From Thermoanaerobaculia bacterium (GTDB lineage Bacteria > Acidobacteriota > Thermoanaerobaculia > Multivoradales > JAHEKO01): a stretch of DNA of 54,954 nt. Below are positions 18,760 through 23,182 of this stretch, piece after piece. The DNA is taken from positions 5,164-60,117 of the forward strand of contig CALZKB010000001.1 in the NCBI GenBank assembly GCA_945787575.1. The letters are read 5' to 3'. Below the pieces are notes generated by a model, which saw nothing but the letters and a program-made list of their open reading frames with translations, had not been told where the DNA came from and did not search any database. The stretch's first letter is position 1; every line of letters starts with the position of its first letter. The translations under genes were made by a program, and so were the position numbers.

Positions 18760-19230
18760 CTACTCGCCCCAGGTGAGCCGTGCCGGGTTCATCCCGCCAC
18801 AGCCGCCGGCGGCGAACGGCTTGCCACACATCCCGGTGTAGCAGGAGTTGCCGGGGAACCCGTCGGGGTTGACCTTGGCGTACCAGCTCTCGACCTCGGT
18901 CCGCACCGTCTCGGCATCCGCTCCCTGCTCGGCGATCAAGTAGTGCGACAGCCCCCAGACCGTGCGCGACAGGTTGCACGGGCAGCAGCAGGTGTAGGCC
19001 GTGTTGTCCGAGCAGCAGGCGGCGGGGAGCGCTTCGAGCGCCTCTCTCTTGATCGCTTCCTGCTCGGCGGTGAGCACGATCTCTTCGTAGTACCTCATGA
19101 AGCGCTGGGCGTCCGCTCGCGCGTCACCGGAGTCGGGTCCGGCCGCCAGGTAACCGGCTGCGAGGCCGAGAACCACGGTCAGGCCGAGGGTGAGAAAACG
19201 GGTGAATCGGGTGTTGGTGGTCGAGTTCAT
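18760..19230 (-). CDS. Exported cysteine-rich protein of unknown function
   Basis: 156 residues. An N-terminal membrane segment or signal peptide (FLTLGLTVVLGLAAGYLAAG) is followed by a helix-rich part and a cysteine-rich core: ACCSDN, YTCCCPC and later NSCYTGMCGKP and GGCGG. That is eleven cysteines, several paired, suggesting metal or iron-sulfur/copper binding or redox work outside the cytoplasm. The pattern resembles the PCYCGC group of exported proteins but I do not claim membership. ATG 19230 is chosen because GGAG lies 5 nt upstream; an ATG at 19245 overlaps the NUDIX stop (ATGA) but has no ribosome site. It is the second gene after a NUDIX hydrolase. Confidence 0.65.
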   Translation of the reverse strand: MNSTTNTRFTRFLTLGLTVVLGLAAGYLAAGPDSGDARADAQRFMRYYEEIVLTAEQEAIKREALEALPAACCSDNTAYTCCCPCNLSRTVWGLSHYLIAEQGADAETVRTEVESWYAKVNPDGFPGNSCYTGMCGKPFAAGGCGGMNPARLTWGE

Positions 19231-19241
19231 AATGACTCCGC

Positions 19242-19754
19242 TCATTGAAGGTGGAAGGCCACGGGGACCTCGCTGAGCATCTCATGATCGAGCATCGCAT
19301 CCTCGTCGAACACGAAGCGGCCGTAGAACGGCTCGCCGGCGAGCAACTTGGGGATCCAGATCCGATCGTCTTCCCACATTTCGTCGAACGGGATCGCGTG
19401 GAGCGGAGTCCAGAGGGGGATCGCCTCGTCGGTCTCGCGCGGTTCGCGATCGCAGCTGTCGGCACGGAACACGTGGACGTGAATCGAGTAGCCATCGACG
19501 AACTGGAACAGCAGCTGCCCCGCGGCAATCGGCGTGGTGGGGGTGGTGAGCAGCTCCTCCTCGACCTCTCGCACGGCGCAGTCGGCGAGCGACTCGCCAT
19601 CCTCCCGACGCCCGCCAGGGCCGTTGACCTTGCCGGCACCCAGGCCGCGTTTCTTGCGAATGAGGAGGACGTGGCCGTCCCGGATCACGAACAGGAGGGT
19701 GGCGTGGTCGACCGGCCGCCAGTTGTGCCAGTCGATGTCGGTGAGGGCTCGCAT
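19242..19754 (-). CDS. NUDIX hydrolase
   Basis: 170 residues with a full NUDIX box: GGRREDGESLADCAVREVEEELL (G-x5-E-x7-REVxEE pattern, about residues 48-70). The layout, with the ATLLFVIRDGHVLLIRKKRGLGAGKVNGPGG opening and the late WEDDRIWIPKLLAGEPFYGRF segment, resembles MutT/MTH1-type 8-oxo-dGTP and 2-hydroxy-dATP pyrophosphatases, but substrate is not fixed by the box. It would clean oxidised nucleotides in the cytoplasm. It is divergent from tatD and overlaps or abuts the Cys-rich gene. Confidence 0.85.
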   Translation of the reverse strand: MRALTDIDWHNWRPVDHATLLFVIRDGHVLLIRKKRGLGAGKVNGPGGRREDGESLADCAVREVEEELLTTPTTPIAAGQLLFQFVDGYSIHVHVFRADSCDREPRETDEAIPLWTPLHAIPFDEMWEDDRIWIPKLLAGEPFYGRFVFDEDAMLDHEMLSEVPVAFHLQ

Positions 19755-22561: not shown

Positions 22562-23182
22562 ATGACGAGAACCGTTACGGTCTTAGGCCTCGTCGGCCTG
22601 CTGGCGATCGCCGGCGTCGTCGATGCCCAGGTCGCTTCGAGCCCCGGTGAGGTGACGCCGCTTCTCATCGGGAGCGAAGTGCCCTCGGCCACGGTTCGCC
22701 AGCTCGACGGCACCGAGGTCGATCTCAGGGAGGTCGTCGGCGACGATAGAACGGTCGTCATCTTCTACCGCGGCGGTTGGTGACCGTACTGCAACGGACA
22801 GCTGGGTCAGCTGCAAAGCATCGAGCAGGAGATCCGGGACCTCGGCTTCCGACTGATCGCCTTAGGCGCCGACCAGCCGAGCAAGATGCAGCCGACCATC
22901 GATCGCCATGAGCTCGGCTACACGCTCTACTCGGACAGCAAGATGAATGCGGCGCGGGCCTACGGAATCGCCTACCGGGTCGACGAAGCGACGGTGACGG
23001 CTTATAAGGGCTACGGCATCGACCTCGAGGCGGCGTCGGGCGAGAGTCACCTTCAGCTGCCGGTGCCGTCGGTGTTCGTCTATCGCGAAGGGGTGATGAC
23101 CTTTCAATACGTAAACCCCGACCACCGGGTGCGGCTCGACGGAGACACCCTGCTGGCCGCGGTCCGCGCCGCGGCGGGCTAG
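22562..23182 (+). CDS. Selenocysteine-containing peroxiredoxin-like protein (in-frame UGA at 22781)
   Basis: 206 residues if the TGA at 22781-22783 is read as selenocysteine (residue 74). An N-terminal signal peptide (about 1-22, ending VVDAQVASS) precedes an AhpC/TSA-fold domain: VPSATVRQLDGTEVDLREV, VVIFYRGGW-U-PYC, LIALGADQPSKMQ and VPSVFVYREGVMTFQ. Cys-containing relatives have FYRGGWCPYC, so the UGA sits exactly at the peroxidatic/first redox cysteine, with the second cysteine at 77. The frame is open for 132 codons after the UGA and keeps the family fold. A hairpin 15 nt downstream fits a bacterial SECIS. It should reduce peroxides in the envelope. A nonsense mutation is the alternative. 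Confidence 0.87.
22781..22813 (+). promoter_or_regulatory. Recoded UGA and bacterial SECIS-like hairpin
   Basis: After the TGA (22781-22783) and a 15 nt gap, CAGCTG (22799-22804), loop GGT and CAGCTG (22808-22813) form a six base-pair stem-loop. The loop starts 21 nt after the UGA and begins with G, within the known limits for bacterial SECIS elements, which sit in the coding region right after the UGA and bind SelB. Outer TGC/GCA pairing could lengthen it. Confidence 0.7.

Follow-up and report, generated by a model that had tools for sequence, protein, structure and literature searches.

The window analysed here, the whole stretch of 54,954 nucleotides, contains on its forward strand a frame that runs from ATG 22562 to TAG 23180–23182 and is broken by a single internal stop, TGA 22781–22783. 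An earlier note on this DNA had placed this TGA at the first cysteine of the motif FYRGGW[U/C]PYC, and both the frame and the motif position (residue 74) are confirmed. The features of the locus are as follows.

22562..23182, + strand: predicted selenoprotein gene, 206 aa, with an AhpC/TSA (Prx-like) domain at residues 36–138 (Pfam PF00578, 1.4e-20; 30 orthologues)
22562..22627, + strand: putative signal-peptide-like N-terminus, MTRTVTVLGLVGLLAIAGVVDA (hydrophobic core; similar N-termini in orthologues)
22781..22783, + strand: UGA predicted to be read as selenocysteine (Sec) U74, first position of UPYC (orthologues; Cys in L075 and other homologues)
22790..22792, + strand: codon of the partner cysteine C77 of UxxC (alignment with 2cx3; invariant in homologues)
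22799..22813, + strand: bacterial SECIS-like hairpin CAGCUG-GGU-CAGCUG with apical GGU (covariation, consensus fold; absent from Cys homologues)

The TGA is flanked by 73 codons upstream and 132 downstream, giving a read-through product of 206 residues. This product matched the Pfam family AhpC-TSA (PF00578) with 73.9 bits (cut-off 26), and third-position GC was 0.82 upstream and 0.85 downstream of the TGA. When all TGA codons of the window were scanned for coding continuity in six frames, two passed: TGA 22781 and TGA 21257, the latter being the ordinary end of an MFS gene with upp next in frame. The Pfam match, the equal third-position GC and the scan together indicate that the in-frame TGA is real and not a chance occurrence. 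Sequence inspection revealed no obvious Shine-Dalgarno motif upstream of ATG 22562. In the frame of the gene, a standard ORF listing gave only 22886–23182, a 98-residue C-terminal piece. Standard ORF calling therefore misses the gene.

Within a sample of 72 genomes from the same order, 24 besides that of the window carry a close orthologue (44–58% identity) whose matched stretch contains a single TGA, at the same codon every time. Five orthologues from elsewhere in the phylum (L074, L076–L079) also carry the TGA, so that 30 orthologues, 25 of them in the order and the window gene included, share it at the identical codon. The motif WUP[YF]C is common to the 24 and the five. Several of these orthologues come from assemblies of one or a few contigs (G051, G063, G129, G220). 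Frame and protein sequence are conserved on both sides of the TGA. The window's genome has ten PF00578 matches, and only the window gene contains a TGA.

Alignment of Cys homologues placed cysteine at the U74 position in a single orthologue (L075, with TGC in place of TGA) and in distant homologues. The genome of L075 (G289) encodes SelA and SelB above their cut-offs; tRNA-Sec was not found there at E ≤ 1e-11. Loss of Sec decoding was considered as the origin of this cysteine and is unsupported, as SelA and SelB still exceed their cut-offs. That a genome with SelA and SelB carries the Cys form indicates that Sec is not indispensable at this position. The Sec/Cys label was clustered on a quick tree, which gives no branching order within the orthologues and does not distinguish gain from loss of Sec. 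A search of viral contigs returned no relative, and all plasmid-borne relatives were below 60% identity. No conserved neighbours emerged when the gene neighbourhood was compared across relatives, and hence neither an operon partner nor an electron donor can be named from context.

All components of the Sec system implied by the earlier note were found in the window's genome, a 5.59 Mb draft of 484 contigs that is 97.5% complete. SelA scored 522.6 bits, SelB exceeded its cut-off in one 654-aa frame with both protein ends matched, and tRNA-Sec scored 72.3 bits and has a UCA anticodon. SelD was also over its cut-off, with one in-frame TGA at CAGUASK, a motif that fits the UxxK Sec-SelD described in the relevant passages of PMC9312934. 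This selD gene (L019, 1477–2532 on contig 27 of G000) is thus a selenoprotein gene itself. A second SelD-like gene (L020, contig 35) has no TGA and occupies a 765-residue frame. Among the sampled relatives, tRNA-Sec exceeded the family cut-off in 20 of 20 (21 of 21 genomes with the window's), and SelB did so in 18 of the 21.

The hairpin begins 15 nt past the UGA; its arms are CAGCTG 22799–22804 and CAGCTG 22808–22813, separated by the loop GGT. A SECIS hairpin shortly past the UGA, with a small apical loop containing G, is given as a feature of bacterial selenoproteins in the pertinent part of PMC1088965, and the window hairpin, just downstream of the UGA with a small GGU apical loop, has this form. 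Covariation was analysed for a 7-pair helix in 16 distinct Sec sequences, of which 14 are orthologues and two are paralogues; L049 and L051, paralogues with their hairpin in another register, were excluded from the pair count. In this set, 95.5% of cells were paired, 12 cells were changed on both sides, and four of the seven pairs showed compensatory changes, such as G-C to A-U, C-G to U-A and G-C to C-G. The covariation score was 0.333 compared with 0.165 for shuffled alignments, and none of 500 shuffles reached it, figures that are counts rather than probabilities because the sequences are related. Sliding the partner strand by 1–3 columns destroyed the signal. The RNAalifold consensus fold of the 16 homologues was exactly the 22799–22813 helix, and mean hairpin energy was −7.4 kcal/mol in Sec forms versus −1.0 in Cys forms.

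The single sequence folds less clearly. Folded alone, a 61-nt stretch of the window has a minimum-energy structure other than the hairpin (z −0.72 for this one sequence), and 5.7% of synonymous-codon redraws gave a hairpin as stable as that of the window, which makes this control suggestive at best for the single sequence. Since the peptide QLGQLQ favours a hairpin by itself, it is the compensatory synonymous changes, and not single-sequence energy, that constitute strong evidence. An Rfam search gave no match to a SECIS family, with every match far below its gathering score. The hairpin that had been proposed at SECIS distance is present and covarying, while neither the single-sequence fold nor Rfam supports it.

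Collectively, the Sec machinery, the TGA shared by independent orthologues and the covarying hairpin support the selenoprotein reading first put forward in the earlier note. We assign a probability of about 0.93 to the gene encoding a selenoprotein, as judged from sequence; it would be an exported member of the AhpC/TSA Prx-like UxxC family. The same evidence speaks strongly for decoding as Sec and for the redox motif. SelB carrying Sec-tRNA-Sec would bind the 22799–22813 hairpin, with UGA 22781 being decoded as Sec, as the conserved elements suggest.

Other explanations of the TGA were weighed against the same data. A sequencing or assembly error, with TGC or TGT as the true codon of an ordinary Cys enzyme, could be suspected from the cysteine in L075 and distant homologues and from the draft state of the 484-contig source genome. 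However, 29 other genomes also have TGA at this codon, always accompanied by the hairpin, and some of their assemblies consist of a single contig or a handful. Independent orthologues, several from assemblies of very few contigs, thus exclude such an error, whose residual probability we regard as negligible. A pseudogene, or a genuine stop that leaves a shortened N-terminal product with an independent gene starting downstream at ATG 22886, would agree with the ORF listing, in which only 22886–23182 appears in frame. It is nevertheless very improbable: the frame stays open and the protein sequence is conserved on both sides in orthologues, the redox motif spans the TGA, and in the structural model ATG 22886 would begin inside the thioredoxin fold. 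Decoding of the TGA as Trp or another residue, through a changed genetic code or a suppressor, would likewise keep the frame open. This is hardly credible, given that TGA is the stop codon of seven out of nine neighbouring genes, that the homologous residue is Cys and not Trp, and that the genome has a complete Sec system.

The selenoprotein was then compared with known folds. Its AlphaFold2 model had a pLDDT of 72.6, with low values at the N-terminus and residues 140–165, and adopted a thioredoxin/peroxiredoxin fold (Z 17–19 against peroxiredoxins over about 150 residues). ResA-type proteins were also among the strong Foldseek matches. None of the NCBIfam models reached its cut-off on the read-through protein, and the ResA score was also below threshold. 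Alignment with the archaeal thiol peroxidase 2cx3 placed C77 on the cysteine that we take to be peroxidatic and U74 on the Ser/Thr position. In terms of the peroxiredoxin signature PxxxTxxC, Cys77 is kept, Sec74 stands at the Thr position and R70 at the Pro position; with these two replacements, the protein is not a peroxiredoxin by motif. UPYC at residues 74–77 instead conforms to UxxC. As a qualification of the earlier note's reading, the protein is better placed in the UxxC Prx-like family than among peroxiredoxins proper.

Export of the selenoprotein is likely from its sequence. The N-terminus reaches an 11-residue Kyte-Doolittle maximum of 2.8, and every orthologue with a choosable start, the Cys orthologue included, has a signal-like hydrophobic N-terminus. 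The segment could also remain as an uncleaved membrane anchor. Exported selenoproteins, such as formate dehydrogenases N and O of E. coli, are already known, so that the export which the earlier note called notable is not new.

For its function, we lean towards reduction of peroxides or disulfides in the periplasm by selenol/thiol chemistry, with substrate and donor assigned by inference. The signal peptide would direct the protein out of the cytoplasm, where the Sec74 selenolate in the thioredoxin-fold active site may attack a (hydro)peroxide or the disulfide of a protein or small molecule. The intermediate would be resolved by Cys77 with formation of an Se-S bond, after which a thioredoxin-like donor in the periplasm may reduce the enzyme again. 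Possibly the selenoprotein acts instead as a thiol:disulfide oxidoreductase of the ResA/TlpA kind, perhaps membrane-anchored, and not on peroxides. Its UxxC is thioredoxin-like, its best solved relative by sequence is a ResA protein, and the Thr and Pro of peroxiredoxins are not kept; peroxiredoxins, however, rank highest by overall fold of the model.

Many further TGA-bearing thioredoxin-fold genes occur in the order, of which selenoproteins, the putatively exported one of the window included, are a regular feature. A second group of TGA-bearing Prx-like genes (L049, L051, L087, L091) is followed by a hairpin whose register is shifted, of the type GAGC-TGGAT-GCTC; the two members checked, L049 and L051, have no signal-like N-terminus. 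This group is probably another selenoprotein subfamily of the phylum. A third group in the order (L050, L052) comprises TGA-bearing UPFC redoxins with the hairpin register of the window gene and signal-like N-termini. Elsewhere in the window, 18760–19245 on the minus strand is a small ORF rich in cysteine (ALPAACCSDNTAYTCCCPCNLSRTVWGL); its product has a hydrophobic stretch at the N-terminus and matches no NCBIfam model. For the window gene, a likely annotation error is corrected, as it escapes NCBIfam cut-offs and appears in the ORF listing as the 98-residue piece alone. The natural Sec/Cys orthologue pair is suited to testing what selenium contributes.

Among known systems, ResA/TlpA-type thiol-disulfide oxidoreductases are exported and carry CxxC at the equivalent position of the fold, but the window protein shows low identity to them, scores below the NCBIfam ResA cut-off and has its best Z values with peroxiredoxins. 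Sec-containing peroxiredoxins (PF00578, TxxU) share superfamily and fold with it; in true Sec-Prx, however, Sec is the peroxidatic residue, whereas the window protein has Cys77 there and Sec74 at the conserved Thr/Ser. The orthologues might constitute an exported subfamily of their own, not listed before, with Sec at the Thr position and the peroxidatic Cys kept, a periplasmic seleno-peroxidase of hybrid thioredoxin/peroxiredoxin mechanism maintained across the phylum, which we consider unlikely. Cys homologues annotated 'peroxiredoxin-like family protein' are about 32–37% identical to the window protein and presumably belong to cd02970. The selenoform of the cd02970 type is UxxS in the corresponding passage of PMC13188914, in contrast to the UxxC of the window protein, with Sec and a Cys at +3. 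Prx-like thiol:disulfide oxidoreductase selenoproteins with PF00578 and UxxC/UxxU appear in the selenoprotein passages of PMC9312934 and PMC13188914, UXXC Prx-like selenoproteins in those of PMC1088965, and Prx-like 1 in those of PMC2398784. By PF00578, motif and published description, the window protein fits this family, sharing PF00578, UxxC in place of TxxU, a SECIS-like hairpin near downstream and Cys homologues. The window group differs in its signal-like N-terminus, export being a point on which these published passages are silent. Neither the chemistry nor the export is unprecedented, and a known selenoprotein family gains a member.
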